From IMG/VR virus record IMGVR_UViG_3300042691_019090, positions 1 to 43,745 of that record: a stretch of 43,745 nt of DNA. The stretch is one strand, 5' to 3'. The translations under genes were made by a program, and so were the position numbers. Origin of the DNA: a virus. Shown here piece after piece: positions 904 to 43,745 of the stretch (position 1 is its first letter; every line of letters begins with the position of its first letter). The notes under the pieces were generated by a model. The model saw nothing but the letters and a program-made list of their open reading frames with translations, did no database searches and was not told where the DNA came from.

Positions 904-1232
904 TGCGTCCATCTACGGTAACAGTCAGCGACGCTAGCGGTGGGGCGAAGAACTCCAACCCCATCGTTCTCGACTATTATGGTCAGGCGGGTGTCGCCTT
1001 GCAGGTGGTAGTCACTGGCACCGCAACCTATACTGTGCAGCAGACCACCGACAACCCGCTCCGTGCGGGTGTCACCCCGACGTGGTTTGACCATCCGGAC
1101 ACCAATTTGGTCGCCCAAACCGTAAACCGGCAGGGCAACTACGCCTACAACCCGGTCGCGGTGCGGGTTCGCCAGACTGCGGGTAGCGGTAGTGTTCAGC
1201 TGACTGCGGTCCAGACGGGTCTGCACCCCTGA
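903..1232 (+). CDS. Small beta-rich virion protein
   Basis: This 109-residue protein is dominated by alternating polar/hydrophobic strands (TVTVSDASG, VALQVVVTGTATYTVQ, YNPVAVRVRQ, SVQLTAVQTG) with a WFDHPD turn near the middle. The pattern suggests a small beta-sandwich, such as a decoration or fibre-base protein. It overlaps both neighbours by one or a few bases and precedes a large carbohydrate-related virion protein. The function is inferred from context. Similar short proteins are common in environmental phages. Confidence 0.65.
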   Translation: MRPSTVTVSDASGGAKNSNPIVLDYYGQAGVALQVVVTGTATYTVQQTTDNPLRAGVTPTWFDHPDTNLVAQTVNRQGNYAYNPVAVRVRQTAGSGSVQLTAVQTGLHP

Positions 1233-3553
1233 TGTCTTCGGGCCTGTACAACGGCGTTTCCGGCCTCGCACTCGGTACGGGGTTGTACAAGTCTACCTCT
1301 GGCCTCTGGTCCGGGGCGTCCGGCCTGCTGGCCGGAACTGGGGGCGCATCCACACAGACGGTGTTCAACATCTTGCTGGCTGGCCAGTCAGAGATGTACT
1401 ACATCACCAACCCGCAGTCGAACTACAACATTATCCCACAGCCGGTGAATGTACCCGACGGCAATGTGGTGATGTATACGCAGGACGTGGCTTTGGGCCC
1501 ACTGGTGACGACGGTTGTCAACCAGACCACAGCCAACGCCCGGCAGGTCAACCCGGCGATGGCGGCTTTGGCGTGTGCTTTGGGCTATGTCCACCCCGGC
1601 AAGACGTTCCACATCGGCGCGGCGGTGTTTTCCGGTACGGGTCGGTCAGACTTGGCAGACGATACCACCGACCCGGACGGTCGCTACTGGAGCGACTTTG
1701 CGGGTATGATTACCGCGACCACGGCGGGCGCTGGCAGGGCACCTGACATTCTGCTGGAGTGCTGGTATCGAAGCGACTCCGCCTTCACCGCAAACTTCGT
1801 CAACGCTTTTTGGCCGATTTATTTTGGCAGCACGGGTGCGGGTGCAAACTTTACCATCCCGTCGGTCAATGCCGTCACCTCCAGAACTGTATCCCGGTGC
1901 ATCTGGGACGCCCAAGCAGCCTCCAACACAACTGGTCGGGGTGTGCTGACCAGAGACGCGACGAAGTGGTCGATCTTGACCCCGATGAGCGATATTTTCG
2001 CTTATCCTGTGGCTCCGACCGCCGAAGCAACCAATTTCACGGCCGTCAGCAGTGCCATGGGCGAACCCCGGCGGCAGGTTGTTATGGACTTGGCCAGCAA
2101 TTCCATCGCCCAGTCTGTCGGTGTGCTTCCGGGTCCCTCTGCTGTCATCATGCGCTTCGATGTGCCGGGTGGCACCGATGGCGGCCCGACACACCCGACG
2201 ACGAACCCGGTTGCTGTTGGTGCTGCTGCCCAAGACGGGCAGGTGGCCTTCATGTGGCCGTTCTTCGTCGCCATTGCCAATGAGGCTGGCTCCAACATCC
2301 AAGAGCCCTATATCGAGTCCCTCGAAGCCGCCACCGACGGTTCATGGTGCGACGTACTGGTACGCTTGCCGAACAACGGCACCCTAACCACTCGTCGTGT
2401 GCTGGAAAGCCGCAGCGCGGTAAGCAGTTCTGTGCCGCATCGGCAAGACGTTATCGGCTTCGAGATTGGTCGCGCGGGCGTTTATCGCCCGGTGTTCAAC
2501 ACGGCCGAAGTTAGCTACCCCGCCAACACGCGTGGCACGGTAACGATCACTGACACCGGCAGCGGCACCCCGAAGCGTGGTAAAGTACGTATTACCCCGA
2601 CGACGGCCTTTGCCTTCGGGGACAGCCTTCGTTATCTTGCGGGCGGTGCCAGCGCCGTGTTGCAAACGCCTCGTGATATGGGCGTTGAGCTGGACATGCT
2701 GCTGGAAACCATCCCGGCTTTGCGTGACACGTCTGCCACCTACCCCTTCCCCGGCGTGGCCGTGCGGCCGTATCAATCGGACTTCCTTGTTCCGGTTCCT
2801 CCACCTGCGTTTACGCCCACGGCTGCCAATTTCGGCACCACGGCTGGCGGCAATACGGGATATTTCCTGTCAACCAGTATTTCGCAGGCCGCTGGCTCGA
2901 CCGGCATGTTCAGTATCTGGGTTCGCCTCGATGACACCGCATGGAACGCAACGGCCCGCTGCGTGTTCGAACTGCGTTACGGCTCCACGATTGCCGTGAA
3001 CTTACTGACATCTTCAGCCGGGCGCTTCAACCTGCGGCTGAACAACAGCACTGCAACCGACACATTCCCGTTCTTTGCCACTTCTGGTGGCGGCGCGTTT
3101 GTCCCCGGCCAGTGGTATCATATCATGGTTTCGTGGAAGACCGATGGGACGCTGGGTAACAGCGACCTGACCATTTACGTCAACAATCAGCAGGTTCGCA
3201 CTGGCACGTTTGCCGCTACCGTGGATATGTCTGGGCAGACGCTTACCCGCCTTGCTATCGGTGGGAACGCTTCGCCTGCGCAGCTTTGGCAGGGCGACAT
3301 CGGCCTGTTCTGGATGGAGGTCAATTTGCCGACGTGGTTTGACCTGTCCGACTCCACCAACCGCGCGAAGTTTGCTTCCGCAGGCGTTCCGGTCAACCTC
3401 GGCGGTAACGGCCAGACTCCGACCGGCACCGCTCCGAAGTGGTATTACAACGGCGCGGGCTCGGCGATTACCAACACCGGCACAGCTGGGAATATCCCGC
3501 TCGTCGGGACGCTTAACACACCGACGGTAGCGCCCACGACACCCCAGTATTGA
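1232..3553 (+). CDS. Large virion protein with esterase-like motif and LamG-like domain
   Basis: 773 residues. Residues 3-37 are a quasi-repeat of GL(Y/W)xGxSGL, seen at the N-terminus of some phage tail or fibre proteins. LLAGQSEM at 48-55 resembles the nucleophile block (LAGQSNM) of SGNH/sialate-O-acetylesterase-type carbohydrate esterases, with Glu where Asn is usual. A segment at about residues 547-700 has the strand pattern of a concanavalin A/LamG fold (MFSIWVRLDD, QWYHIMVSWK, LTIYVNNQQVRTGTF, LTRLAIGG). It is probably a surface-exposed glycan-binding or glycan-processing virion protein. Catalysis is uncertain because no clear SGNH Asp-His pair was identified. Confidence 0.7.
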   Translation: MSSGLYNGVSGLALGTGLYKSTSGLWSGASGLLAGTGGASTQTVFNILLAGQSEMYYITNPQSNYNIIPQPVNVPDGNVVMYTQDVALGPLVTTVVNQTTANARQVNPAMAALACALGYVHPGKTFHIGAAVFSGTGRSDLADDTTDPDGRYWSDFAGMITATTAGAGRAPDILLECWYRSDSAFTANFVNAFWPIYFGSTGAGANFTIPSVNAVTSRTVSRCIWDAQAASNTTGRGVLTRDATKWSILTPMSDIFAYPVAPTAEATNFTAVSSAMGEPRRQVVMDLASNSIAQSVGVLPGPSAVIMRFDVPGGTDGGPTHPTTNPVAVGAAAQDGQVAFMWPFFVAIANEAGSNIQEPYIESLEAATDGSWCDVLVRLPNNGTLTTRRVLESRSAVSSSVPHRQDVIGFEIGRAGVYRPVFNTAEVSYPANTRGTVTITDTGSGTPKRGKVRITPTTAFAFGDSLRYLAGGASAVLQTPRDMGVELDMLLETIPALRDTSATYPFPGVAVRPYQSDFLVPVPPPAFTPTAANFGTTAGGNTGYFLSTSISQAAGSTGMFSIWVRLDDTAWNATARCVFELRYGSTIAVNLLTSSAGRFNLRLNNSTATDTFPFFATSGGGAFVPGQWYHIMVSWKTDGTLGNSDLTIYVNNQQVRTGTFAATVDMSGQTLTRLAIGGNASPAQLWQGDIGLFWMEVNLPTWFDLSDSTNRAKFASAGVPVNLGGNGQTPTGTAPKWYYNGAGSAITNTGTAGNIPLVGTLNTPTVAPTTPQY

Positions 3554-5462: not shown

Positions 5463-5595
5463 GCACACCCCCAAGTCGGTAGCGGTCCCGAGCTGCTGCG
5501 GTTACCCGAACAACATCAAGAACACCCAGACCGTCAAGACGCGCGGCACGGGCGCGGCGACGAAGGGTAACAAGAGCAGCACCAAGCTGGGCTGA
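5455..5595 (+). CDS. 46-residue basic phage protein
   Basis: The start at ATG 5455 lies inside the end of the preceding gene; the frame is open further upstream, but the overlapping-start pattern favours 5455. The protein (MAEHTPKSVAVPSCCGYPNN, IKNTQTVKTRGTGAATKGNK, SSTKLG) has a Cys-Cys pair and a TRGTGAATKG tail. It resembles tiny conserved proteins seen beside adaptor genes in other environmental phages. The stop TGA overlaps the ATG of the next gene. The function is unknown. Confidence 0.65.
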   Translation: MAEHTPKSVAVPSCCGYPNNIKNTQTVKTRGTGAATKGNKSSTKLG

Positions 5596-6275
5596 TGGAC
5601 TACGATACGCTCTTCAAGACCATCAAGGGATATGTCGAAAACGACTTTCCCAGTGGTACGTGGACCAACCCGGCTGGCACCGGGACGGTCACCCTGACCT
5701 CGAAGGAAATTATCGATACCTTCATCCGTCAGGCGGAGCAGCGCGTCTACAACACTGTTCAGCTACTGGAACTCCGCAAGACCGCAAGTTTGTCGTGCAC
5801 CTCGGGTAACCCCATCGTGAACACCCCCACCGACTGGCTTGCTAACTTCTCGTTGGCTGTCGTTCTGGCCAATGGTGATTATGAGTTCCTGCTCAACAAG
5901 GACCCGAACTTCATCCGGGCGGCCTTCCCGAACCCGGCGACCACAGGGACTCCGACACACTACGCCTTCAAGGACGAGGACGAGTTTCTGCTGGGGCCGA
6001 CCCCGGACAGCAATTATACCCTCGCCCTTACTTATTTCTACTACCCCACGTCGATTGTAGACGCCGGCACCTCGTGGTTAGGCGACAATTTCGACTCCGT
6101 GCTGCTATATGGCTCGCTCCTCGAAGCCCACACCTATGTGAAAGGCGAAGAGGACGTGAACGCCAACTATAAGGCCCGCTACGACGAAGCGCTCGCCCTG
6201 CTCAAGATGCTGGGTGAGGGTAAAAACCGGAGCGATACCTACCGTTCGGGGCAACCCCGTTATCCCGTGAGGTGA
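5595..6275 (+). CDS. Phage adaptor protein (SU10-adaptor-like)
   Basis: 226 residues. It is helical at the start (YDTLFKTIKGYVENDFP, KEIIDTFIRQAEQRVYNTVQ, LLELRKTASL). A beta-rich centre follows (PTDWLANFSLAVVLANGDYEFL, FLLGPTPDSNYTLALTYFYYP). The C-terminus is helical (VLLYGSLLEAHTYVKGEEDV, YKARYDEALALLKML). This order is characteristic of head-to-tail adaptor proteins of podovirus-like phages, including the family named after phage SU10. It probably joins the portal to the tail. The RQAEQRVYN segment is the most family-like part. Confidence 0.75.
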   Translation: MDYDTLFKTIKGYVENDFPSGTWTNPAGTGTVTLTSKEIIDTFIRQAEQRVYNTVQLLELRKTASLSCTSGNPIVNTPTDWLANFSLAVVLANGDYEFLLNKDPNFIRAAFPNPATTGTPTHYAFKDEDEFLLGPTPDSNYTLALTYFYYPTSIVDAGTSWLGDNFDSVLLYGSLLEAHTYVKGEEDVNANYKARYDEALALLKMLGEGKNRSDTYRSGQPRYPVR

Positions 6276-9519: not shown

Positions 9520-9863
9520 CGGGTATCTATGCTGCGTCGGCGGCAGCGTCAGCCCCCGCGCTTTCGGCCACAATCGGAGCGGGTCAAGTTGCTGCGGGCG
9601 GCACCTCGACTTTCAACTTCAACACCAACACATGCACGCCCTCCGGCGGCGTCGCCCCCTATTCCTATTTTTGGTCGTGGACAGGCGTTACCGGCACCGG
9701 GACGATGACGTTCAACGGGTCCAACACAACCCAGACAGTCACCCCGCAAGTGACCGGCGCGGTACTGGGGGTTATCTATGGCAACCTCCAGTGCCAAGTA
9801 ACTGATGCTGCTTCGAATGTGTTCACCACCACGACTTCCTACTATGAGTATGAGCGTACCTGA
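9516..9863 (+). CDS. Small Ig/PKD-like tail-associated protein
   Basis: 115 residues from GTG 9516, which overlaps the fibre stop (GTGA). An Ala-rich start (ASAAASAPALSATIGAG) precedes an Ig-like segment: STFNFNTNTCTPSGGVAPYS, YFWSWTGVTGTGTMTF, TVTPQVTGAVLGVIYGNLQC and VTDAASNVFTTTTSYY. The two cysteines (TCTP and LQCQV) and the GVAPYSYFWSW pattern resemble PKD or Ig-like domains of phage surface proteins. Coupling to the tail fibre suggests a fibre tip or accessory protein. A longer start would run inside the fibre gene, so GTG is preferred. Confidence 0.7.
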   Translation: MTGIYAASAAASAPALSATIGAGQVAAGGTSTFNFNTNTCTPSGGVAPYSYFWSWTGVTGTGTMTFNGSNTTQTVTPQVTGAVLGVIYGNLQCQVTDAASNVFTTTTSYYEYERT

Positions 9864-11797
9864 TGGCCTTCATCAAGCTCCAGTTCAAACCGGGCGTTAA
9901 CCGCGACCAGACCGATTACTCGAACGAGGGCGGCTGGTATGCGTGCGACAAAATTCGGTTTCGTTCTGGTTACCCCGAAAAAATTGGTGGTTGGCAGAAA
10001 ACAACCCCTTCTGCGTTCATCGGGGTCTGCCGCCAGATGTATAACTGGGCGACTACCTTTGGCGACAATTTCGTGTCCCTTGGAACCAACGAGAAGCTGT
10101 ATATCGAGAACGGGGGTAATTTATTCAACGTAACCCCGTTGCGGGCGACCATGAACAGCCCGGATACCGACAACAGCATCAACACGACCAACGGCTCGAC
10201 GACTGTGGTCGTCAACCTTGGTGCCCCTCACGGAGCCGTCACTGGGAGCTACGCCCAAATCAGTGGTGCGACGGGTGCCAGTATCGGCGGTATTCCGATT
10301 GCGCAAATCAATACCAACCACAAAATCACGGTCATCGACGCTGACTCGTTCTCGTTTGTCGTCACCACTGCGGCTACATCGACTGTGTCCAATGCAGGTG
10401 GCACCGCAGTCGTCATTCAGTTCGAAATTGCGCCCGGTAACGCTGTCACCATCAAAGGCACCGGCTGGGGTGTTGGTACGTGGGGCCGGGACACTTGGGG
10501 TCTTGGGTCCACCACTGGGGGTATAAACCTGCCGCAGCGCGACTGGTGGTTCGACAACTTTGACAATGACCTTGTCATGAATATCCGGGATGGGGCTGCC
10601 TATTGGTGGGCGCGGGGGACAAACGCTAACCCGACTTCAGCACTGGCTACTCGTGCGATCACTCTGGCGAGCTACGCGACCGCAGAAGGGTTTGACGCCA
10701 ATGCGGTGCCGGCCAAGGTCATGCAGCTGCTTGTGTCTCAGCAGGACCGGCACCTTATCGCGTTTGGAGCAGTTCCGTTCGGGTCGACCAATCCGGCCGA
10801 TTTTGACCCTATGCTCATCCGCTGGGCGGACCAAGATACCCCCGGTGACTGGACACCGACAACCACTAACTCCGCTGGGGATATCCGGGTCTCCCGTGGC
10901 TCCAAGATTGTCCGCGCGCTCCCCACACGGCAGGAAATCCTCGTGTGGACTGATGCCGCGCTCTATACACTCCAGTTCCTCGGGACGACAGATGTGTTCG
11001 CGCTCCAAGAATACGCGGACAACGTGTCGATAGCATCACCCCGCGCCGTGGCTACCGCGTCCAATGTCACCTACTGGATGGGCAGGGATAAGTTCTATGC
11101 CTACACCGGCCGCGTGGAGACCGTTCCATGCAGCCTACGGAACCATGTATTCAAGAACATCAACTTCACCCAAGCGGACCAGATTATCTGTAGCACCAAT
11201 GAGGAGTGGAACGAAATCTGGTGGTTCTATCCGACTGCTAACAGCTTCTATAATAACGCTTATGTCGTCTACAACCATCTGGAGCGGGTGTGGTATTATG
11301 GCTCGCTCGACCGCACCGCTTGGCTGGATTCCCCGCTGAGGGAGTATCCTATGGCCGCTAACTCTCCGGTGTCGGTAAGCGGCACGACGGTGACGGTTGG
11401 TAACGGGTACATGTATGACCACGAACGTGGTATAGACGCCGATGGCGCTCCGATGAGCTCCTTTATCGAGTCTTCGGACTTTGACTTGGAAGACGGCGAC
11501 CAGTTCATGCTCATCCGGCGGCTTGTTCCCGATATCACTTTCAACGGGTCCACTGCCACGTCTCCGGAGGTTACGTTCCGGATAACCCCGCGTAATTTCC
11601 CCGGTACCGCTGTCTATACTGACTCCAGCGACACCCAGCGGGTTGTCGAGACTACTATCGGGCAGTTTACTCCGCAGGTGTTCATCCGTGCTCGCGCCCG
11701 GCAGATGGCGCTTAAGGTCATGTCCGAGAACTCCGGTGTGCAGTGGCAGCTGGGTGCCCCTCGTCTTGACGCTCGTGCGGATGGAAGGCGGGCATAA
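9863..11797 (+). CDS. Large tail structural protein, nozzle-like
   Basis: 644 residues beginning MAFIKLQFKPGVNRDQTDYS, then a CDKIRFRSGYPEKIGGWQKT block. Further on are GWGVGTWGRDTWGLGSTTGG, RDWWFDNFDNDLVMNIRDGA and DRTAWLDSPLREYPMAA, characteristic of a large, conserved virion protein of podovirus-like environmental phages. The repeated W/G-rich strands suggest a beta-propeller-like tail nozzle or tubular protein B counterpart. A Gly/Thr-rich inserted region lies around residues 100-200. It overlaps both neighbours by a few bases. The nozzle role is inference. Confidence 0.7.
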   Translation: MAFIKLQFKPGVNRDQTDYSNEGGWYACDKIRFRSGYPEKIGGWQKTTPSAFIGVCRQMYNWATTFGDNFVSLGTNEKLYIENGGNLFNVTPLRATMNSPDTDNSINTTNGSTTVVVNLGAPHGAVTGSYAQISGATGASIGGIPIAQINTNHKITVIDADSFSFVVTTAATSTVSNAGGTAVVIQFEIAPGNAVTIKGTGWGVGTWGRDTWGLGSTTGGINLPQRDWWFDNFDNDLVMNIRDGAAYWWARGTNANPTSALATRAITLASYATAEGFDANAVPAKVMQLLVSQQDRHLIAFGAVPFGSTNPADFDPMLIRWADQDTPGDWTPTTTNSAGDIRVSRGSKIVRALPTRQEILVWTDAALYTLQFLGTTDVFALQEYADNVSIASPRAVATASNVTYWMGRDKFYAYTGRVETVPCSLRNHVFKNINFTQADQIICSTNEEWNEIWWFYPTANSFYNNAYVVYNHLERVWYYGSLDRTAWLDSPLREYPMAANSPVSVSGTTVTVGNGYMYDHERGIDADGAPMSSFIESSDFDLEDGDQFMLIRRLVPDITFNGSTATSPEVTFRITPRNFPGTAVYTDSSDTQRVVETTIGQFTPQVFIRARARQMALKVMSENSGVQWQLGAPRLDARADGRRA

Positions 11798-14129: not shown

Positions 14130-14569
14130 TTAAGGTTAGTCTTGTCCCCCCGAACATGGTTGAGGCCCTTTGGTCTAAGCTGTTCCCCTTCCTGTCGAAG
14201 GCGGCGGAATACACGTTCGGGCGGTATGAACCCGAGGACATCATGGATGCTCTGCTCAGCGGAGAGCTGCATCTATGGGTAGCCGCCAAGGGTAATGAGC
14301 TTATGGGTATCACCGTAACTCGTTTTTGGGTATACCCGCGCAAGAAGTGTCTTGATATGGTGTTTCTGGCTGGTGACGATGGGTTCAGCTGGAAGGACGA
14401 GATGCTCAAGATGCTCCAGTGCTGGGCGTATGACAACCGGTGTGATGTGATCGAAGCATCTGGTCGTCTGGGTCTGGCCAAGGCGTTCAAGGACGACGGG
14501 TATCGTCCGCTGTGGCAGGTGTTCGAGCTCCCCGTGGGTAGCTCCGGGCTTGGAGGTAGTAATGGCTAA
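14126..14569 (+). CDS. GNAT-like protein of the internal virion block
   Basis: 147 residues. It shows the short GNAT pattern: a helix pair (MVEALWSKLFPFLSKAAEYT, then PEDIMDALLSGE), strands LHLWVAAKGNELMGITVTRF and KCLDMVFLAGDDGF, a helix (EMLKMLQCWAYDNRC), and DVIEASGRLGLAKAFKDDGY. Phages with T7-like tails often carry such a small acetyltransferase-like gene (T7 gp13 region) beside internal proteins. The classical R/QxxGxG/A acetyl-CoA loop is not obvious, so activity is doubtful. ATGA overlap upstream; the next start lies inside its end. Confidence 0.65.
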   Translation: MIKVSLVPPNMVEALWSKLFPFLSKAAEYTFGRYEPEDIMDALLSGELHLWVAAKGNELMGITVTRFWVYPRKKCLDMVFLAGDDGFSWKDEMLKMLQCWAYDNRCDVIEASGRLGLAKAFKDDGYRPLWQVFELPVGSSGLGGSNG

Positions 14570-15686
14570 GGGCGGCGGCGCGCAGACGCAATACGTCAAG
14601 TCGGAGACTTCCAATCTCCCCGAATACGCACGCCCCTATTTCGAAGGGCTGATGGGTGGCGCTCAGGGCCTTCTGAGTCGGGATTACGTGCCGTTTAGCG
14701 GTCAGCGCATCGCGGACTTCACTCAGGGTCAGCGTGGCGTGCAGCAGGAAGCCCTCGGTATGCAGACGCCGGGGGAGTTTGGTTTTGGCTCCAACATCGC
14801 TGCGCAGAGCGCCATGGGGTCGATGGCTGCAGGTGACTACAACCCCGCCAATTTCCGCGCGCAGCGCGTGGGTGCTCCGGGGCTCAACTACTTCCAAATG
14901 CAGGGTCCGGGCCTGTTCAATACCGAGACGGCGCAGCAGTATATGTCGCCGTATATGCAGAACGTGCTCGACGTTGAGAAGCGCGAAGCTATCAATGACG
15001 CTAGGCAGGGGCAGCTCGTTCAGGACCTCGGTGCGGCCCGGCAGGGCACCTATGGGGGCAGTCGGCAGCTGCTCGCTGCGATGCAGCGCGAGCGGAACCT
15101 TGGGCGGCAGCTCGGTGATATCCAGACCCGTGGTCTCCAGAGTGCCTTCGAGAACGCCCAACAGCAGTTCGAGCGCGACCGCACTGCTGGTATCAACGTA
15201 GGTGGTCAGAACCTCCAAGCAGCGCTCGGCGTGCAACAGCTCGGGGCCGACACTGGTCTGCGCGCCGCACTGGCCAACCAGCAGACGGGGCTCGAAGCGC
15301 AGCGGCTTGGTGAACAGTCGCGCCAGTTCGGCGCGCAACAGCGTCTGGCTGGTTATGGTCAGGCCGGCGGACTCGCTCAAACGCTGGCCAACCTCGGCTC
15401 CGCGCGGTCTCAGGCGGACCTGTCTCGTCTCGGCTTCCAGACGCAGCAGGCTGCTCAGGAGCAGGCGCTCAACCAGCAGTATCTCGACACCGCCTATCAG
15501 GACTTTCTCCGGCAGCGTGATTACCCGCTGGAGATGCTCCAGCAGTATAGCAGCTTGCTGCGCGGCGTACCGGTCACTCCGAACTCGACCTCGACGACTT
15601 ATGCCCCGGCTCCGGGTCTCGGGCAGCAGCTGTTGGGTACCGGGCTCGGTGCGGCGAGCATCTACAAGACCTTCATGGGTGGCTAA
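14562..15686 (+). CDS. Internal virion protein, gp14-like position
   Basis: 374 residues from ATG 14562, chosen because GGAGGTAG lies just upstream; a TTG four codons earlier is unlikely. The protein has a GGAQTQYVKSETSNLPEYAR start, then a long Gln/Ala/Gly/Arg-rich helical middle (GQLVQDLGAARQGTYGGSRQ, LQAALGVQQLGADTGLRAAL, TQQAAQEQALNQQYLDTAYQ) and a hydrophobic C-terminus (GLGQQLLGTGLGAASIYKTF). The DARQGQLVQDLGAARQGTYG-type motif is frequent in phage internal/ejection proteins. The function is inferred from composition and order. Confidence 0.65.
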   Translation: MAKGGGAQTQYVKSETSNLPEYARPYFEGLMGGAQGLLSRDYVPFSGQRIADFTQGQRGVQQEALGMQTPGEFGFGSNIAAQSAMGSMAAGDYNPANFRAQRVGAPGLNYFQMQGPGLFNTETAQQYMSPYMQNVLDVEKREAINDARQGQLVQDLGAARQGTYGGSRQLLAAMQRERNLGRQLGDIQTRGLQSAFENAQQQFERDRTAGINVGGQNLQAALGVQQLGADTGLRAALANQQTGLEAQRLGEQSRQFGAQQRLAGYGQAGGLAQTLANLGSARSQADLSRLGFQTQQAAQEQALNQQYLDTAYQDFLRQRDYPLEMLQQYSSLLRGVPVTPNSTSTTYAPAPGLGQQLLGTGLGAASIYKTFMGG

Positions 15687-15688
15687 GC

Positions 15689-16906
15689 ATGGAAACGAAG
15701 CCGTTCAGCATCCAGTCACCTGAGCAGATCGCCAAGGATTATGGCGGTAACAAGCAGCGCATTGCTCAAGCCATGCAGATGGGCCTCCTCGACCCTACTG
15801 CGGGCACACTTGCTGGTATGTTCATCGACCGTATGCGTGGGGCGGCCCAGCAGGAAGGAGCCCCCCAGCAGACTGTGGCTCAACAGGTGTTCGCTCCGCC
15901 GCAGATGACGTCGCCCCCGATGGGCCAACCCCAGATGCAGATGCCGCAGGGTCTGGGTCAACCTCAGATACCGATGCCGCAGGAAACCCCTCCGATGGGT
16001 ATGGCGGGTGGGGGTCTCACGGCACTCCCCTTGCCGGAGAGCATGTTTGACGAACCGGCTGATTACGCTGGTGGCGGTATCGTGGCTTTCGCCCAAGGGG
16101 GCGAAGCTGAAGAAGACGAGTTGGGCGGGTTTTACAAGGACCCGGTGCGCGAGCGCGAGAAACTGCGGCAGCTCTACCAACCCAAGACGGAGGCTCGTGA
16201 CCGTGCACGCGGTCTCTTCGAGGGTATGCTCGACCCTGAGCAGCAGAAGAAGCGTTTGAGCGAAGACAAGTGGATGGCGCTCGGGCAGATCGGTGCCAAG
16301 ATGGCACAGACTCCGGGGTCGCTGTTTCAGGCTCTCGGTGCGGGTATCGAGGCTGCGCTTCCGGGTATTCAGGAAGCATCCAAGGAACGCCGGGCTGAAG
16401 TCCGCGATGCGGTCATGCAGATGGCGCAGATGGAAGGTCTCGACAACAAGGAAGCCATGGAGCTGGCCAGAGAGGCGCTCAGCGGCACCAAGACGTTTGC
16501 TGAGCTCCAGCAGAAGGCCAAAGAGATGGCGCAGCAGTCTGAGCTTGCCAAGATGGAAGACAAAACCCGCCGTTACGTTGCGGATACTGGTGCTGCGGCC
16601 CAGATGGGTTCCGCTCGCATTACTGCCAATTCGTTCGAAGCACAGGCTAAGAGGCAGGAAGCTGCGCTCGACAAGCAGGCGCGCAACGAAGCCATGAAGG
16701 CCGCAGCCGCAGACATGGCGAAGGTTAATTTCGGCATGGCCCCGAAAGACCCTGCTGCCAAAGCGGCGTATGACCAAGAGTTCCTGAAGCGGTTCAACTT
16801 CTACTATCAGTCGTATCTGGGCGCATCCCCCTCTGGTGCACCTGCTTCTACTGGTGTAGGTGGGTACGGTTCTCCTCCGCCGGGGGCGGTTAAGAGGGTT
16901 GGTTAA
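15689..16906 (+). CDS. Internal virion protein, gp15-like position
   Basis: 405 residues starting METKPFSIQSPEQIAKDYGG, then NKQRIAQAMQMGLLDPTAGT, a start repeatedly seen in environmental-phage ejection proteins. A Pro/Gln/Met-rich linker lies at about 60-110. It contains GLY-rich GGGLTAL and GGGIVAFAQGGE segments, then long charged helices (EREKLRQLYQPKTEARDRAR, AMELAREALSGTKTFAELQQ, ELAKMEDKTRRYVADTGAAA). It lies directly before the giant gp16-like gene, with a one-base overlap (TAATGG). It is probably ejected. Confidence 0.65.
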   Translation: METKPFSIQSPEQIAKDYGGNKQRIAQAMQMGLLDPTAGTLAGMFIDRMRGAAQQEGAPQQTVAQQVFAPPQMTSPPMGQPQMQMPQGLGQPQIPMPQETPPMGMAGGGLTALPLPESMFDEPADYAGGGIVAFAQGGEAEEDELGGFYKDPVREREKLRQLYQPKTEARDRARGLFEGMLDPEQQKKRLSEDKWMALGQIGAKMAQTPGSLFQALGAGIEAALPGIQEASKERRAEVRDAVMQMAQMEGLDNKEAMELAREALSGTKTFAELQQKAKEMAQQSELAKMEDKTRRYVADTGAAAQMGSARITANSFEAQAKRQEAALDKQARNEAMKAAAADMAKVNFGMAPKDPAAKAAYDQEFLKRFNFYYQSYLGASPSGAPASTGVGGYGSPPPGAVKRVG

Positions 16907-19900
16907 TGGCTGATGCCAAGTACAGGGTCAAAATCGGGGGCGCTGAATACGAAGTCGTCGCCCCCGACGAAAACACGGCTTGGCAATGGGCGAACATGGC
17001 CCATGAACAGGAAACCCTGAAAACTGCTGAAAAACCTAAGGAAGGCCCCGGTTTCTTCGGTGCGCTTGGACGCGGGTTGACGACTCTTGGCGACCTACCG
17101 GAAGCGTTCGGGTTTGCTACCGGGGACGAAGAAGCCCGTAAGGAGCTCGCCAAGAAGGAAGAAGGTGCCGGCGAGTTCGGCATGGACAAGTCTCTTGGGG
17201 AAAACTGGGAAGCCCTGAAGGAGCTGGCCGGCGAGTCTCTCGGGTTCATGGGTGCGCCACTTGCAGCGGGTGCCGCAGGTACTCTCGCTGGCGGCCCCTT
17301 GGTCGGTGCTGGTGCCGGTCTTGCCACCCTCCTTGGCCAATACGGCACGACCAACCTGAAGCGGCAGGCGCAGGAAGACGAAGCACGCATTGCACGGGGG
17401 GAGGCTCCGCAAGGGGCCGATGTTGGTAAAGCCGCCCTCGCGGCTACTGGGCAGGCGGGGCTCGACGTGGCTGGTGCCTTCCTTCCAGTGTTTCGTCCGC
17501 TCGCTGCTGCGTTCCCCTTCATGCGTCCACTCCTTGGTGCTGGGGGCGCGAAAGCTGCTGGCGAAGCGGCTGAAGCTATTGTCGAAGCCGCAGCTAAGAA
17601 GCAGCTCACCATCAAGGGTGGTATTGCACGCGGTGTGGCTCAAGGCGTGGCTTTCGAAGTCCCGCAGGAAGTTGCTCAGCAGGCACTGGAGCGCTGGCAG
17701 GCTGGGCTCGAACTGGGTAGCGACGACGCACTGGAGGAATATAAGCAGGCCGCGTTTGGCGCGGCTGTTCTCGGTGGTGGTATCGGCGGTGTCTCCGGCG
17801 GCGCGCAGGCCGCTTTCACCAAAGAAGCTACTCCCAAGTCTTCGGAATCACCTGCACCTGCTGAGGATACTACCGCAGTTGTAGCTGAATTTGATCGGCT
17901 GTTTACCGCTGCTGTCCAGCAGGAGATGCAGGCTGACCCCAAGCTCAAGCCGGGACAGGCGTTCGCCAAGACCAAGGCGCGGGCAATCGAGATTGCGGAG
18001 GAGGCGCGGGCCAATGTCGAAAAAGCACAAGCAGCTCCCGTGGAAGGAGCAGCAAGTGGACCTGACGTGGATGTCGCTGGAACAGCTGGGGCTGGCGTTC
18101 AAGATACTGGCGGCCCCGCGCCCACCGAAGAAGTTGCCGAAGGACCTGCGCCCACTGAACCCGTCGGAGTGGCTGGCACTGGAGCACCTGTTAGTGGAGT
18201 TGCTCCAACAGAAACGGCAGAGCGTGGTGCACTGACGCCGGATATCTATACCTCGGCTGTAGATGCGGTGCGCGAGAGCCAGAAAGCCAGCGCCAGCTTC
18301 ATCCAGCGCAAGCTGGGGATTAAGTACAACGCCGCATCCCGCCTTATCGAGCGTATGGAGCAGGAAGGCATTGTAAGCCCCCCGAGTAAAGACGGTTCGC
18401 GCACCGTGATACCCACCGTCGCCGCTGAACAGAAGGCCGTCGAGCCCGCTGCGCCCGTCACCATTGAGTCTGTCACGGCGGAAATCGAGCAAGCGGTTAC
18501 TGATGGCTTCATTACCGCGCCCCTTGCTGCCAACGCCACCAAGGCCATGGCGTCTGGGAAGTTTACGCCGGCCGAAGTCAAGACTCAGCTCGACACTCTC
18601 ATCAACAACCAACTGGCCAAGCGGTTCGGAGATAATGAAGCCACCGCCCCCTCGGAAACCGGAGAGCAAAGCGATGCGCAGGAAACAGCTTCGCCTGAAA
18701 CCGAAGGCGAAGGACCCGTTGCGGGTGAAAGGGGAGAAGAAGCCGCCCCGGCAGTTGAGGACGAAGTAGACCTTCTGGCGGACGCCCGCAACGCGAAGAC
18801 CATGAAGGAGCGCAAGGATGCTGTGCGCCCTATCGTCGACCTGTTGGCCGAAGACTCCATCAAGGGTGTGAAATATCCGGTGGGGATGACGTCCAAGAAG
18901 CTGGGCACCCTCAAGACCCAGATGGTCAACCAGATTGCGCCGAAAGTTGCGCGTGGCGAAGAGGTCGACCCTGCTGCTGTCGTAGACGCTATCCTGCGCG
19001 ATAATGGTTTCGCTATTCCTGAGCGCGCAGCGGGGACGCCGGCTGCACCTGAACCCGCCACGACTGAGACCCCGGTGGAGGACAGGACGGTTATTGTAGT
19101 CCACGGCGGGTCCGACTTTGAGGTAATTGACCCATCCAAGTTTGGTTCGGGCGAACCCGGTGGTATCCGCCCGCTGGGCAGGGGACTCTACGGCTATGTA
19201 GTTGATGGTAGCGACCCGGAAGCACTGGCGAAAGCCGTTAAGGGCGCGCGCACATACGCGGAAAAATACGGACGTGGGTCCAAAACCATCCACGCATTTA
19301 AGCTTGACCTGTCCGGTGCGGGCGTGGCGTTCAACGGCCCCGAAGTTGAGAGTATCACCCGTAAAGCCACTAAAGGTGCCCCTGCGGCGGCGAAGTTCGA
19401 GCGGCTCCCCATCGGGTTGGTAGAGGTAGGCGTCACCGACACCGGTCGGCTTCAGCCGCTCGCGAAAATTCCTGTTAGTGAGTCCGACAGCACTCTGGTC
19501 GACAGTATCATCAAGGTGCTGGCTGCGCCCGAACCCGCACAGAACGAAACAGTTGAAACTGCTGCGGCTACACCCGTAGTGGAAAATAAGAAGCGCGGGC
19601 GGCCCAAGAAGGCCCCGACTCCGTTGCCTCTACTCGAAGCGACGCCCGCTGCTCCTGCTGCTCCTGCTGCTCCTGCTGCTCCTGCTGCTCCGCCTCCCCC
19701 GCCCCCTCCGCCTCCCACGGGTGGGCCTGCTTCGCAGCCCGGTGGTAAGAAGCCCAAGCCCTTCAAGCTGACCCCGAAGCAGCTCGAAGAGGCGCGTAAG
19801 GCGGCGAACCTGCTCCAGACCAAGGCGAACCGGATGCAGAAGCGCGTGGCCAGCACGCGCGAAGCCCGTGAGGTGATTTCCGAGAGCATCAGCCTCGCCA

Positions 19901-22900
19901 AGTTGCTGCGGGGGGATAAGGCCAACCTCGCTGTGCTGCGCGCTGCGCTCGACAGCCTCAACTCGTCGAAGTGGAAGGTGCTGCTGCCCTTGCTGTCCAC
20001 CGACGATATCTTCCGGGTGGTCAAGGGGCGCGTCCCGGCTCTGAACAGCCTCGATACACTTATCCGCGATAGCGTAACTGGTTACGAAGCCAAGGAGTTC
20101 GTGCGCCTCTCGGACGAGCTGAAGACGGTCGAGAAGTTCCTCAAGCGCTTCCCGAAGGCAGCGGACGTCTTGTCCGACCTTCAGTTCATGGCTGTGGCGT
20201 ATCAGGTCGACCCCTCACTGGCACCCAACGCCACTGAGTATATCAGCCGCGTCGACAAGCGGCTGGCGGAGCTGCGGCGCGAGCTGCAAACCGAAACCGA
20301 CAGGAAGAAGCGGGGCGCTATTCAGGCACAGATAACCACGCGCTCTAAGGCCATTGCCGCTGTCTACAATGGGGGTGAAGTCGAGGGTGAGACCGTCTTC
20401 GGCTGGCGCGACCTCGACAAATCCGAGTATGGTTCCGGGCAGGGTAAGCAGGTTTTCGCGCTTATGCGCGACGCCCACCGCCGCGACTTGGAAGCCAACT
20501 ACCAAGCTATCCGCAGCCGTATTGAGGCCACTTCCGGGGAAGAAGAGAAGCAGGGGCGGCTCGACAAGCTGAGTGCGGCGTTCAAGCCCGCCATGGACCA
20601 AGTCATCTACTTCCCGCTGATGCGCTACGGTGACCACTTCCTGCGCGTGGGTAAGGGTCAGAACAGCATCTTCCTGATGTTCCCCTCGAAGCTCAAGCGG
20701 GACGTCGCCGCGAAGAAGCTGGGTAACAAGGGTATGGAGGTGACCGAGACGGGTCACGTCAGCGAGCTGCGGGTGGAGTTCGAGAACCAGAGCAACCCTC
20801 TCCAAGAGGTCTTGCAGCTCTTCAACGACAACCCCGGTAAGGATGCGTCTGCGCTGCGCGAGCAGGTCTTCGATCTCTGGCTCCAGAGCGGCGTGGTGAG
20901 CGATATGTCCAAGCACCTGCTGAAGCGCGAGCTGCGTGCCGGCTACAGCACGGACATCCTGAAGAACTTCGCCAACTTCCGTCGGCTCTCGATCAACAGC
21001 ACCAAGCGGGCGCAGTTTGGTCACGAGTTGCAGAAGCTCGTCGCCAACGCGCGGCAGCTCGCCAAGGAAGGTCTGGAGGGCATCGACAAGGATACCGCCA
21101 TGGCCTTCATCGACGAAATCGACACCAAGGCGCGGGCCAAGCTGCTGCCGGAGCGCGAGGACAACAGCATCTTCAAGCAGGCTATCGAATTGGGTAATAA
21201 GATGGCCTTCTACCAGTATTTGGCTAACACGAAGAGCGCGCTGATTCAGCTTACTCAGCTGCATATCGTCTCGTTCCCGATGCTCGCACAGCGGTTCGGC
21301 ACGGCCAAGGCTGCCGCGATGCTGTCCAAGTATGCGTTCTCTTCACTGGGTGGGTTGGTCGTTAGCCCTCTGAAGGCCGCTAAGCGCACCAACGGCGAGT
21401 TCGCGTTCGACTGGAAGCAGCCCAATCTGCTCGATAACCCTGTGACGGTGCTCAAGCGGACCTCGGACCCTGAGCTTTACGAAGTGTTGGCTGAAGGCTG
21501 GGCAGCCGGACGCGACACCAACTTGTTCCTCGACACCTTCGCCCAGACCACGGCGGGGGTGGCCACAGCCGACCCGAACCAAGAAACTATCATGCAGTCG
21601 CTGAAGCGGGGGCGTGCTGACCGCGCGTCTATCCGCTCCGCCAAGTTCGTGTTCGATGCCATGGGCGGCCTCATGCACCAGATGGAGCGCGTGAACCGTG
21701 AAGCGACCTATATGTCGGCACTGGAGCTGGCTTACCGTGACGCACGCAGTAAGAAGCAGTCACACGAAGACGCTAAAAAGAGCGCCATCGAGGCGGCGCG
21801 GACGCTGACACTGGAAGCGACGTTCGACTTCACGTCCTATAACAAACCCCGTGCCTTCACCGAAGGTGTCGGTAAGCTGGCCGGGCAGTTCTTCACCTAC
21901 CCCTACATGATGTCGTCGCTGCTGGCGCGCAACCTGTTCACCGCTATCAAGAAAGGTCCGTTGCAGCCCGGCGAGCGCAAGGCCGCCGCCCAGATCGCTG
22001 CCGGCACGATAATGAACATCGGCCTCTACGCCGGTCTGACAGGTCTGCCGTTCTACGGTCTGGCCAAGGTCATCGGTTATATGTTGGCGGAGCTGTTCGA
22101 CGACGAGGACGAAGAAGGCGGCCTGAGCTATGTCGACCCGGAGACTGGTGAACTGAAGGCCACGTACAATATCGACTACTGGTTCCGTAACGTGTGGGTG
22201 CCGAACTTCCTCGGTCCCGGCGGCACTGCGGCTACGATGTTTGGTCTTGATGAGGAGACCGCCAAGGCAATCGAGCTTTCGGCGTTGAAGGGGCCGTTCT
22301 CGGCCCTGTCCGACGTGGACCTCGCCAACTCGGTGGCCACCGACTTTTTCTTCTTCCTGCCCGAGACGCCCCGCGCGGAAACTCTCGAAGGGCAGATGAT
22401 GGAGACCGTGTTCAACACCGTGCTGGGTGCATCCGGCAGCATGTTCCTCGATTATGCCAAGGCGGGGCGCGACTTGACCAACGGCTACACCGAACGCGCT
22501 CTGGAGAAGCTGCCCAAGCTCATCTCCAACCCCCTGAAGGCTGCGCGCTTCGCAGAAGAAGGTCAGCTCAACTACCAAGACGAGCTGGTAGGTATGAACA
22601 AGGACTTCTGGACTTCAGGTAAGGCTATTCTCCAGTCGTTGGGTTTTGCCTCTACCGAAGCCGACGTGGCCGTTGAACGTAACTACGCAGCCAAGAAAAT
22701 CACTGCCAAGGGGGAAGCGGAGCGCGTCAAGGTCACCGACCAGTTCAAACGCGCGGTGCGCGCCTACTACAAGAGCGGCATGACCGACGACGCACAGGCG
22801 GAAGTCGACGAAGCCACTGCCGCCGTGGACGAATATAATCAGACCCACCCTGACAACCCTGTCAGCGGCCCCAGTTTGGCGGAGATGGCCCGGAACACGG

Positions 22901-23004
22901 TCTTCGAGATGGAGAAGAGCAAGCAGCTTAAGGGTATCCCCTTCGACACTGAGGGCAAGACCCGGTTCTTGCAGCCGCGCGTCGAGCGTGAGCTGGAAAA
23001 ATAA
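16906..23004 (+). CDS. Giant internal/polyvalent virion protein with FtsK-gamma-like domain
   Basis: 2,032 residues, the largest gene. Order: N-terminal KYRVKIGGAEYEVVAPDENT (1-30); hydrophobic Ala/Gly helices (about 110-225); an FtsK-gamma-like winged helix (446-506: KASASFIQRKLGIKYNAASR, then LIERMEQEGIVSPP); a putative ADP-ribosyltransferase-like segment (about 726-850; H733 in VVHGGSDF, GRGLYGY at 758-764); an Ala-Pro/poly-Pro linker (about 914-950); a long helical C-terminal half with NTKSALIQLTQLHIVSFPML then AQRFG, PLxRFG-like (about 1441-1465); and membrane-prone stretches near 1690-1730. It is comparable to T7 gp16-type ejected proteins and multi-domain polyvalent proteins injected with phage DNA. 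No lytic transglycosylase motif was identified. Confidence 0.8.
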   Translation: MADAKYRVKIGGAEYEVVAPDENTAWQWANMAHEQETLKTAEKPKEGPGFFGALGRGLTTLGDLPEAFGFATGDEEARKELAKKEEGAGEFGMDKSLGENWEALKELAGESLGFMGAPLAAGAAGTLAGGPLVGAGAGLATLLGQYGTTNLKRQAQEDEARIARGEAPQGADVGKAALAATGQAGLDVAGAFLPVFRPLAAAFPFMRPLLGAGGAKAAGEAAEAIVEAAAKKQLTIKGGIARGVAQGVAFEVPQEVAQQALERWQAGLELGSDDALEEYKQAAFGAAVLGGGIGGVSGGAQAAFTKEATPKSSESPAPAEDTTAVVAEFDRLFTAAVQQEMQADPKLKPGQAFAKTKARAIEIAEEARANVEKAQAAPVEGAASGPDVDVAGTAGAGVQDTGGPAPTEEVAEGPAPTEPVGVAGTGAPVSGVAPTETAERGALTPDIYTSAVDAVRESQKASASFIQRKLGIKYNAASRLIERMEQEGIVSPPSKDGSRTVIPTVAAEQKAVEPAAPVTIESVTAEIEQAVTDGFITAPLAANATKAMASGKFTPAEVKTQLDTLINNQLAKRFGDNEATAPSETGEQSDAQETASPETEGEGPVAGERGEEAAPAVEDEVDLLADARNAKTMKERKDAVRPIVDLLAEDSIKGVKYPVGMTSKKLGTLKTQMVNQIAPKVARGEEVDPAAVVDAILRDNGFAIPERAAGTPAAPEPATTETPVEDRTVIVVHGGSDFEVIDPSKFGSGEPGGIRPLGRGLYGYVVDGSDPEALAKAVKGARTYAEKYGRGSKTIHAFKLDLSGAGVAFNGPEVESITRKATKGAPAAAKFERLPIGLVEVGVTDTGRLQPLAKIPVSESDSTLVDSIIKVLAAPEPAQNETVETAAATPVVENKKRGRPKKAPTPLPLLEATPAAPAAPAAPAAPAAPPPPPPPPPTGGPASQPGGKKPKPFKLTPKQLEEARKAANLLQTKANRMQKRVASTREAREVISESISLAKLLRGDKANLAVLRAALDSLNSSKWKVLLPLLSTDDIFRVVKGRVPALNSLDTLIRDSVTGYEAKEFVRLSDELKTVEKFLKRFPKAADVLSDLQFMAVAYQVDPSLAPNATEYISRVDKRLAELRRELQTETDRKKRGAIQAQITTRSKAIAAVYNGGEVEGETVFGWRDLDKSEYGSGQGKQVFALMRDAHRRDLEANYQAIRSRIEATSGEEEKQGRLDKLSAAFKPAMDQVIYFPLMRYGDHFLRVGKGQNSIFLMFPSKLKRDVAAKKLGNKGMEVTETGHVSELRVEFENQSNPLQEVLQLFNDNPGKDASALREQVFDLWLQSGVVSDMSKHLLKRELRAGYSTDILKNFANFRRLSINSTKRAQFGHELQKLVANARQLAKEGLEGIDKDTAMAFIDEIDTKARAKLLPEREDNSIFKQAIELGNKMAFYQYLANTKSALIQLTQLHIVSFPMLAQRFGTAKAAAMLSKYAFSSLGGLVVSPLKAAKRTNGEFAFDWKQPNLLDNPVTVLKRTSDPELYEVLAEGWAAGRDTNLFLDTFAQTTAGVATADPNQETIMQSLKRGRADRASIRSAKFVFDAMGGLMHQMERVNREATYMSALELAYRDARSKKQSHEDAKKSAIEAARTLTLEATFDFTSYNKPRAFTEGVGKLAGQFFTYPYMMSSLLARNLFTAIKKGPLQPGERKAAAQIAAGTIMNIGLYAGLTGLPFYGLAKVIGYMLAELFDDEDEEGGLSYVDPETGELKATYNIDYWFRNVWVPNFLGPGGTAATMFGLDEETAKAIELSALKGPFSALSDVDLANSVATDFFFFLPETPRAETLEGQMMETVFNTVLGASGSMFLDYAKAGRDLTNGYTERALEKLPKLISNPLKAARFAEEGQLNYQDELVGMNKDFWTSGKAILQSLGFASTEADVAVERNYAAKKITAKGEAERVKVTDQFKRAVRAYYKSGMTDDAQAEVDEATAAVDEYNQTHPDNPVSGPSLAEMARNTVFEMEKSKQLKGIPFDTEGKTRFLQPRVERELEK
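20074..20085. repeat. GTAAC-N2-GTTAC palindrome, left-arm copy
   Basis: GTAACTGGTTAC flanked by C and G. It is the only exact copy in the plus-strand arm. It lies in the giant virion gene, read as Val-Thr-Gly-Tyr, so it may be a chance or a displaced site. Confidence 0.6.
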
Positions 23005-42288: not shown

Positions 42289-42609
42289 CTATTCGTTGCC
42301 GCTGCCGCTGCCGTCGCCGTAGCCGTAGCCGTTCCCGTCGCCGTCGCCGTAGCCGTAGCCGTTCCCGTCGCCGTAGCCGTTCCCGTCGCCGTTCCCGTCG
42401 CCGTAGCCGTAGCCACCGCCTCTACCGTCACCAACAGACCCATCACCCCAACCGTCGCCGTTAACGAAGCCGCCATCGCCACAGCTATAGCTATTGCCGT
42501 CAAAACGCATGGTTTGCGGGTAACCAGTTACAGTAACGCCGTCCGGCACGAGCTTGGCCCATAGATGGGAGGGGCAAAGCCCCTCACCACGCAGGCCAGC
42601 GGTCGTCAT
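42289..42609 (-). CDS. Gly-Tyr/Gly-Asp repeat protein with LWAKLVPDG head
   Basis: 106 residues. From ATG 42609, inside the end of the 89-residue gene, comes SHLWAKLVPDGVTVTGY, then a tail of alternating Gly with Asp, Asn, Tyr or Ser. Over the 17 codons of the head aligned with the gene at 42970 (His-Leu-Trp onward), six of seven base differences are synonymous, which argues that this stretch is translated in both. A shorter start at 42510 would drop the head. No Shine-Dalgarno sits before 42609, so translation may be coupled. The function is unknown. Confidence 0.65.
   Translation of the reverse strand: MTTAGLRGEGLCPSHLWAKLVPDGVTVTGYPQTMRFDGNSYSCGDGGFVNGDGWGDGSVGDGRGGGYGYGDGNGDGNGYGDGNGYGYGDGDGNGYGYGDGSGSGNE
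42297..42420. repeat. Hexanucleotide-type repeat (GGC-TAC / GGC-GAC)
   Basis: Plus-strand gccgta, gccgtc and gccgtt units in irregular order. On the minus strand these are Gly-Tyr, Gly-Asp and Gly-Asn codon pairs. Such arrays are prone to slippage in steps that keep the frame. Confidence 0.9.
42520..42531. repeat. GTAAC-N2-GTTAC palindrome inside a repeat-protein gene
   Basis: CA spacer. Codes for Val-Thr-Gly-Tyr at the junction of head and tail of the Gly-repeat protein. It is homologous to a one-base-different site at 43138 in the paralogue. Confidence 0.65.
42569..42585 (-). promoter_or_regulatory. GC hairpin at end of the 89-residue gene
   Basis: GAGGGGC pairs with GCCCCTC over a 3-base loop at the stop codon of the 89-residue gene. 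No U tract follows. It could modulate ribosome or RNA-polymerase passage into the Gly-repeat gene. Confidence 0.4.
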
Positions 42610-42853
42610 TGCACGGGATGAGGGCGATCATCGCAGGCGGCACGATGGTGACGAGCGGCGCGGGGTCATCCAGCTCCGTGTCTTTGGTGGGGCCGTTGAC
42701 GAGCTGGTTGAGGCCACGCTGGGTGCCCCAGCGGCGCACGATGCGTGCGTTGTGCAGATGGTAGAAGTCGCCGTCGAAGGTAATGCTCTTGGCCACCCAG
42801 ACGTGGCCGGCGGTGGCCACCACCAGTGTGGTGGTCCATTGGTTGATGCTCAT
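42584..42853 (-). CDS. Small beta-rich protein, unknown
   Basis: 89 residues. TTTLVVATAGHVWVAKSITF, then DGDFYHLHNARIVRRWGTQR and VTIVPPAMIALIPCNDDRWP. Alternating strands and a short helix. The FDGDFYHLHNA segment and a C-terminal CxxxxW recall small phage proteins of the DUF6948 kind, but this is not a firm match. A palindrome then AAGGAG lie upstream, and promoter 1 precedes them. Confidence 0.68.
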   Translation of the reverse strand: MSINQWTTTLVVATAGHVWVAKSITFDGDFYHLHNARIVRRWGTQRGLNQLVNGPTKDTELDDPAPLVTIVPPAMIALIPCNDDRWPAW

Positions 42854-42871
42854 GTCATGCTCCTTGGTTGT

Positions 42872-42883
42872 GTAACTGGTTAC
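42872..42883. promoter_or_regulatory. GTAAC-N2-GTTAC palindrome (TG spacer)
   Basis: In the leader after promoter 1, about 40 bases from its -10 and directly 5' of CCAAGGAG of the 89-residue gene. Confidence 0.8.
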
Positions 42884-42924
42884 GCCAGTCAGCGTTGGTG
42901 GGTGAAGCTCCTCCCCACTCTCTC

Positions 42925-42953
42925 CTTATACTACACATACTTTCCTATGTCAA
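42925..42953 (-). promoter_or_regulatory. Sigma70-like early promoter 1
   Basis: TTGACA (42948-42953), a 17-base spacer and TATAAG (42925-42930) on the minus strand, in the 116-base gap between the second Gly-repeat gene and the 89-residue gene. It is a near-consensus promoter for the housekeeping sigma factor, and its surroundings repeat promoter 2. Confidence 0.85.
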
Positions 42954-42969
42954 GTAGCCCTCCTTTGGT

Positions 42970-43194
<225 letters not shown>

Positions 43195-43364
43195 CCATCT
43201 TCTCCAAGGCGGCGAGGCGTTGGCGCAGGTGCGACGGGGCGAAACCCCAGACACCGAGAACATTGCGACCATAGTCGCTGCACTCGCGGTTGAGCTGCTG
43301 CTCCGTGGCGAGGAGCTCCGCTTTCAAGGCGTCGTAGCGCCGAAGAAGCTGGATTGCGGGGTGT

Positions 43365-43643
43365 TCATCCATTGTCTGCCTCCAGATTTTGTCTCACGTC
43401 GATGATGAAACTCACACCCGAGCTATCCTTGTCGGTGAAAGCCCGGATGGTGTCGTTCGGGTTCTCCTTCGCTTTGCGGAGCATCTCATAAAGCTCCCCC
43501 GCGAAGACCAGTTTCGCACCGTGGTTCTTCGCGAATATCCGGGCAGAGAGCTTCATCATCTCCTTCTGCCCCAGCCGGTAGGCCAGCAGGCAGGCCACTA
43601 CCGCGAGCGCAAGCCGCGCGATTGCAGATGCTGTGATAACCAT
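43365..43643 (-). CDS. Membrane-anchored small protein, unknown
   Basis: 92 residues. An N-terminal transmembrane helix (residues 4-22, TASAIARLALAVVACLLAYR) is followed by a soluble part: SARIFAKNHGAKLVFAGELY, MLRKAKENPNDTIRAFTDKD and GVSFIIDVRQNLEADNG. A strong GGAGGAG precedes the start. It is probably anchored in the inner membrane with the C-terminal part in the cytoplasm or periplasm. The function is unknown. Confidence 0.7.
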   Translation of the reverse strand: MVITASAIARLALAVVACLLAYRLGQKEMMKLSARIFAKNHGAKLVFAGELYEMLRKAKENPNDTIRAFTDKDSSGVSFIIDVRQNLEADNG

Positions 43644-43645
43644 TA

Positions 43646-43745
43646 TCAGTCTCCTCCGTCGCCGCCGTCGCCGTCGCCGTCGCCGTAGCCGTAGCCGTCG
43701 CCGTCGCCGTAGCTGTAGCCGTAGCCGTAGCCGTCGCCGTAGCCG
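43646..43745 (-). CDS. Gly-Tyr/Gly-Asp repeat protein, 5' truncated
   Basis: The minus-strand frame is open from the window's end to TGA at 43646-43648 and encodes only alternating Gly with Tyr, Asp or Ser, ending GDGGDGGD. The head lies outside the window, so membership of the LWAKLVPDG family is presumed. It ends three bases before the membrane-anchored gene. Confidence 0.65.
   Translation of the reverse strand, partial: GYGDGYGYGYSYGDGDGYGYGDGDGDGGDGGD

Follow-up and report, generated by a model that had tools for sequence, protein, structure and literature searches.

The gamma domain of FtsK (PF09397; PDB 2VE8, 2VE9, 2J5O, 2J5P, 5DCF) is a winged helix with a three-helix fold. Mutation has shown that N1296, R1300 and E1303 of E. 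coli FtsK are needed for KOPS recognition (PMC2533119), and in the known complex three gammas sit on one KOPS (PMC5052618). The domain also contacts XerD through positions that include Q1288, R1289, R1292 and N1296 (PMC5052618, Table 1 therein), and a 9-residue FtsK peptide (1289-1297) suffices to stimulate XerCD (PMC5052618). Gamma domains occur in proteins other than FtsK as well. Iyer et al. 2017 list 'FtsK wHTH' as one of the dsDNA-binding domains found only rarely in polyvalent proteins (PMC5512222). The small terminase of Bacillus phages Sam46 and Sam112 has an N-terminal FtsK_gamma, and according to the same authors free gamma genes with no assigned role are found in phages (PMC8190038).

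Here we describe a gamma domain inside a very large phage protein, referred to below as the carrier. It is encoded in IMG/VR virus record IMGVR_UViG_3300042691_019090, all 43,745 bases of which were analysed and are called the window. No near DNA relative of the window was identified among the phage collection compared. Major features are summarized in Table 1.

Table 1. Features of the carrier gene and its upstream neighbours, in window coordinates
Feature	Position	Strand	Basis
SU10-type head adaptor gene, upstream	5595..6275	+	PF24175, E 1.3e-21
Virion structural protein gene, upstream	9863..11797	+	phrog_3287, E 1.2e-63
DNA ejection protein-like gene, upstream	14550..15686	+	phrog_4287, E 1.3e-9
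Carrier: mosaic protein, PLxRFG-type C-terminus, polyvalent-like	16906..23004	+	ORF, 2,032 aa; NF032893 and PHROGs
N-terminal region (residues 1-445): short N-terminal motif and Gly/Ala-rich stretch, GALTP directly before gamma	16906..18240	+	50% identity to L002
FtsK gamma winged helix, residues 446-502	18241..18411	+	PF09397; PDB phmmer; AlphaFold2 and Foldseek to 2VE8/2VE9
KOPS triplet N475, R479, E482 and XerD-contact positions Q467, R468, N475 (residues 467-482)	18304..18351	+	alignment to E. coli FtsK gamma
Second cassette, residues ~728-880, HGGSDFEVI...LGRGLYGY	19087..19545	+	absent from L002
Conserved C-terminal region, ~1,080 aa	19756..23001	+	in 11/11 relatives, 51-64% identity

A genuine FtsK gamma winged helix

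The carrier segment KASASFIQRKLGIKYNAASRLIERMEQEGIVS is a true winged helix of the FtsK gamma family. Pfam PF09397 (FtsK_gamma) matches it with an E-value of 1.1e-18 and 67.1 bits (curated cut-off 30.6 bits), and the end of PRK10263, the FtsK equivalog, matches at the same place. The only PDB chains recovered by phmmer at E<=0.001 are FtsK gammas of P. aeruginosa and E. coli (best 1.4e-12). An AlphaFold2 model computed from the window segment together with four other viral gammas has a mean pLDDT of 88.6, and Foldseek matched it to 13 PDB chains at E<=0.001, all of them FtsK gamma with TM ~0.8-0.85 and the KOPS-bound 2VE9 among them; the next match is a DtxR at 7e-3. A MarR identity was considered and rejected, the matches of that kind being common to winged helices in general and much weaker than that to gamma. 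The initial annotation had marked positions 18232-18424, equivalent to carrier residues 443-506, and held that residues 446-506 follow the FtsK gamma pattern. Both motifs that it quoted are contained in KASASFIQRKLGIKYNAASRLIERMEQEGIVS, and the fold search placed the segment within the gamma family, so that its assignment is upheld.

The same annotation had proposed N, R and E at the positions that read KOPS, which the alignment bears out: N475, R479 and E482 correspond to E. coli N1296, R1300 and E1303. The triplet is kept in 63 of the 80 viral gammas compared; these were gathered with a search pattern in which part of the helix before is prescribed, but R and E lie outside the pattern, so the count is not forced for those two residues. 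As for the XerD contacts, Q467, R468 and N475 retain Q1288, R1289 (the residue of the key salt bridge) and N1296, while R1292 is replaced by G471 and G1294 by K. A G at 1292 also occurs in Alphaproteobacteria, in 33 of the 80 gammas sampled there (nearly all of them parts of FtsK), so this replacement is compatible with XerD binding. At position 1300 the window gamma has R, compared with S in 63 of 80 sampled alphaproteobacterial FtsK, a sample that is pattern-biased.

In the gamma tree the domain falls on the alphaproteobacterial side, but on a long branch, with no supported small group and with biased sampling, and the window's DNA polymerase is nearest to those of Rhizobium phages at 37%. 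The leaning toward an alphaproteobacterial host is a hint whose support is too weak to use.

The carrier protein and its variable slot

NCBIfam NF032893 (PLxRFG) matches carrier residues 1234-1736 with an E-value of 8.1e-68 and 229.5 bits, well over its curated cut-off of 100 bits, although the match covers only profile positions 2-445 of 681. PHROGs of giant phage proteins also match the C-terminal part. The predicted model of the C-terminal 1,081 residues (pLDDT 42.5) was too poor for a fold search, and a pattern scan returned no bacterial relatives of this region. Pfam and NCBIfam scans of the whole protein identified no RecA-type motor family, and the gamma end is the only part of PRK10263 that matches the carrier; on these scans an identity as an FtsK/SpoIIIE DNA translocase was rejected.

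Judged from its organization, the carrier looks like a polyvalent-type phage protein. It is very large and built of exchangeable modules (unrelated sequence fills the gamma slot in the nearest relative, L002, and a sister protein, L006, has a weak ART-PolyVal match), and its gene lies among late and packaging genes, with adaptor, structural and ejection genes preceding it on the same strand. Replication genes are found downstream on the opposite strand. This gene order, together with the protein family, suggests that the carrier is probably a packaged or ejected virion protein. Elsewhere in the window, a 773-aa protein with a Laminin_G_3 lectin-like domain (1232-3553, +) is likely a tail or receptor-binding protein. 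A 15-base tandem repeat is located at the contig start (1-103), and several 6/18-base repeat arrays of the GCCGTA type lie in minus-strand ORFs at 42294-43745 (-), where they apparently encode repeats rich in Gly and Tyr; it is these arrays that the window's most strand-skewed octamers match.

Relatives of the carrier were found in viral contigs (n=11), and FtsK_gamma is present in none of the 11 contigs, some of which are partial. L002, whose C-terminus is 64% identical, aligns with the carrier up to GALTP, continues with ~260 unrelated residues and then resumes its alignment. The gamma position is a variable slot between low-complexity linkers, and by this comparison the gamma is an exchangeable cassette. 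The start of the second cassette resembles, by eye, the sequence HGSPxxFDxF with which the ART-PolyVal domain of L006 opens, a domain itself matched at E 1e-4, below the gathering cut-off. The window cassette has no Pfam match and a search for relatives of it found none; we consider its likeness to ART-PolyVal tentative. A scan of 399 Pseudomonadota genomes yielded 9 with an above-cut-off PLxRFG match, and none of the 11 ORFs concerned contains a gamma. A lone, motorless cassette that none of the relatives found possesses, the gamma cannot be essential to the core role of the protein family. Its base composition is close to that of its gene (GC 0.573 and GC3 0.702, compared with 0.608 and 0.708) and thus gives no sign of very recent import.

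Possible roles of the domain

The most likely role of the gamma, and one that we consider probable, is that of a dsDNA-binding anchor in an incoming polyvalent-type phage protein. A mosaic protein of this type would have captured FtsK gamma as a DNA-binding cassette. The carrier would be packaged and enter the cell together with the DNA, where the gamma would keep it on double-stranded DNA of the phage as it enters, of the host chromosome or of both, with a probable preference for KOPS-like G-rich octamers. Anchored in this way, the other modules of the carrier could act near the DNA. This role is suggested by the strength of the PF09397 match (67 bits), the fold match to KOPS-bound gamma and the N/R/E triplet; by membership in the PLxRFG family and the place of the carrier after structural and ejection genes; and by the cassette exchange relative to L002, with no gamma in the contigs of the 11 relatives or in the Pseudomonadota PLxRFG ORFs. 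It is also consistent with the habit of phages of joining gamma to other proteins that bind or act on DNA (RdgC, GapR, and ParB with H-NS) and with the presence of 'FtsK wHTH' on the polyvalent dsDNA-binding list of Iyer et al. 2017 (PMC5512222). The relatives that lack the gamma count against an anchor. So does the possibility that one gamma by itself binds weakly when no hexameric motor clusters it, because the known complex has three gammas per KOPS (PMC5052618).

The gamma might instead be a neutral passenger, or a domain for protein-protein contact, that was acquired by recombination and retains no useful DNA binding. Its presence in one family member only would suit this reading, and the gamma of another large phage protein (L021) has lost its Q, R, Y and N positions, so decay does happen in such a setting. 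The window gamma, however, has lost none of the key residues at an identity to FtsK of only ~50%, and its composition fits its gene, so the copy is probably not recent and the contacts look selected; we regard a passenger as unlikely. That the ejected gamma mimics or competes with the host translocase is a distinctly unlikely reading. It would occupy host KOPS or the XerD activation site, and would either disturb FtsK-guided segregation and dimer resolution or activate XerCD, in keeping with the retained KOPS triplet, the retained XerD contacts Q467, R468 (the R1289 salt bridge) and N475, and the sufficiency of peptide 1289-1297 for XerCD stimulation (PMC5052618). It is opposed by the replacements at 1292 and 1294, even though alphaproteobacterial FtsK often has G at 1292; by the residue at 1300, where the FtsK of an alphaproteobacterial host would probably have S (in the pattern-biased sample) and the carrier has R; and by the few copies per virion that would face a whole chromosome of KOPS. 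The window also lacks a dif site of the E. coli type, which is a weak test. A still more specific version, in which the ejected protein binds KOPS of the host, XerD or both as infection begins and steers itself along the chromosome or takes over dimer resolution, appears very unlikely.

The initial annotation had envisaged a KOPS-type reader on an ejected protein that could bind host or phage DNA in an oriented way during genome entry, or mimic the host translocase. Of this, the domain and its carrier are supported, in that the gamma is real, has the KOPS triplet and belongs to a carrier of a class thought to be packaged and delivered with the DNA. Oriented binding of the phage's own DNA is not, as KOPS counts on the phage genome reveal neither excess nor orientation: GGGNAGGG occurs 9 times in the window against 8.95 expected, 5 on the plus and 4 on the minus strand and with no bias in either half, and GGGNAGNG occurs 33 times against 34.5 expected. 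These counts, and the absence of the domain from the 11 relatives, make it highly improbable that the gamma reads the orientation of the phage genome, with polarized KOPS setting the direction of packaging or entry. Such a reading has a precedent in the proposal made for the FtsK_gamma-bearing small terminase of Sam46 and Sam112 (PMC8190038), and GGGCAGGG is found 3 times on the plus and 0 times on the minus strand, although these are too few to count.

Comparison with other gamma domains

The window gamma is matched by 221 phage records in the collection, many of them in RdgC-like genes, and viral fusions of gamma to GapR, to ParB with H-NS and to DUF1441 were seen. The fusion to the GapR DNA-binding domain (PF10073), which joins a KOPS-type reader to a supercoil-tracking nucleoid protein, occurs at L022:7383-8618 (+), L058:3962-4519 (+) and L028:1165-2496 (+; Rhodobacter phage RcKemmy), and the gamma of these fusions recurs in a gene of Ruegeria phage 45A6 annotated as 'cell division protein FtsK'. 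A 750-aa viral protein (L052:1931-4180, +) combines ParB_N, HTH_ParB, the H-NS C-terminal domain and FtsK_gamma in one chain. The gamma of L021 (1-3501, +), with its lost contact positions, is accompanied by sigma-70 region 1.1, a GHKL-type ATPase and a weak metalloprotease match, and FtsK_gamma with a weak DUF1441 match at L035:1580-2461 (+) is possibly a small-terminase-like fusion as in Sam46. FtsK gamma emerges as a mobile DNA-reading module, joined by phages to many different proteins. In giant phage proteins, to which mostly no function has been assigned, it offers a concrete, testable predicted DNA-binding module for which contact residues and a target motif can be given.

Compared with FtsK, the window gamma shares the sequence family, the three-helix winged-helix fold, the N/R/E triplet and the XerD salt-bridge Arg, but it sits inside a phage protein with no RecA-type motor, membrane domain or hexamer, and it differs from the E. 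coli gamma in the changes R1292 to G and G1294 to K. In the small terminase of Sam46 and Sam112, too, a gamma is fused into a phage protein and its DNA-contact residues are conserved, but this terminase is a packaging protein and not a giant mosaic. The podovirus PLxRFG proteins (for example those of the Klebsiella phages LASTA and SopranoGao and of Pseudomonas phage Skulduggery) share the C-terminal region with the carrier at 20-30% identity, whereas none of those checked contains a gamma; in Pseudomonas PLxRFG phages such as Skulduggery and vB_Pae_BR228a, a gamma is in a separate exonuclease/RdgC gene. The polyvalent proteins of phages and conjugative elements (PMC5512222) resemble the carrier in being very large, with exchangeable modules, likely packaged and equipped with an FtsK-derived DNA-binding module, the 'FtsK wHTH' example being Cupriavidus WP_029307715, a likeness drawn from its description in that paper. 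Both the module and its setting are thus already known, and what is new is the combination of a gamma with a PLxRFG protein.
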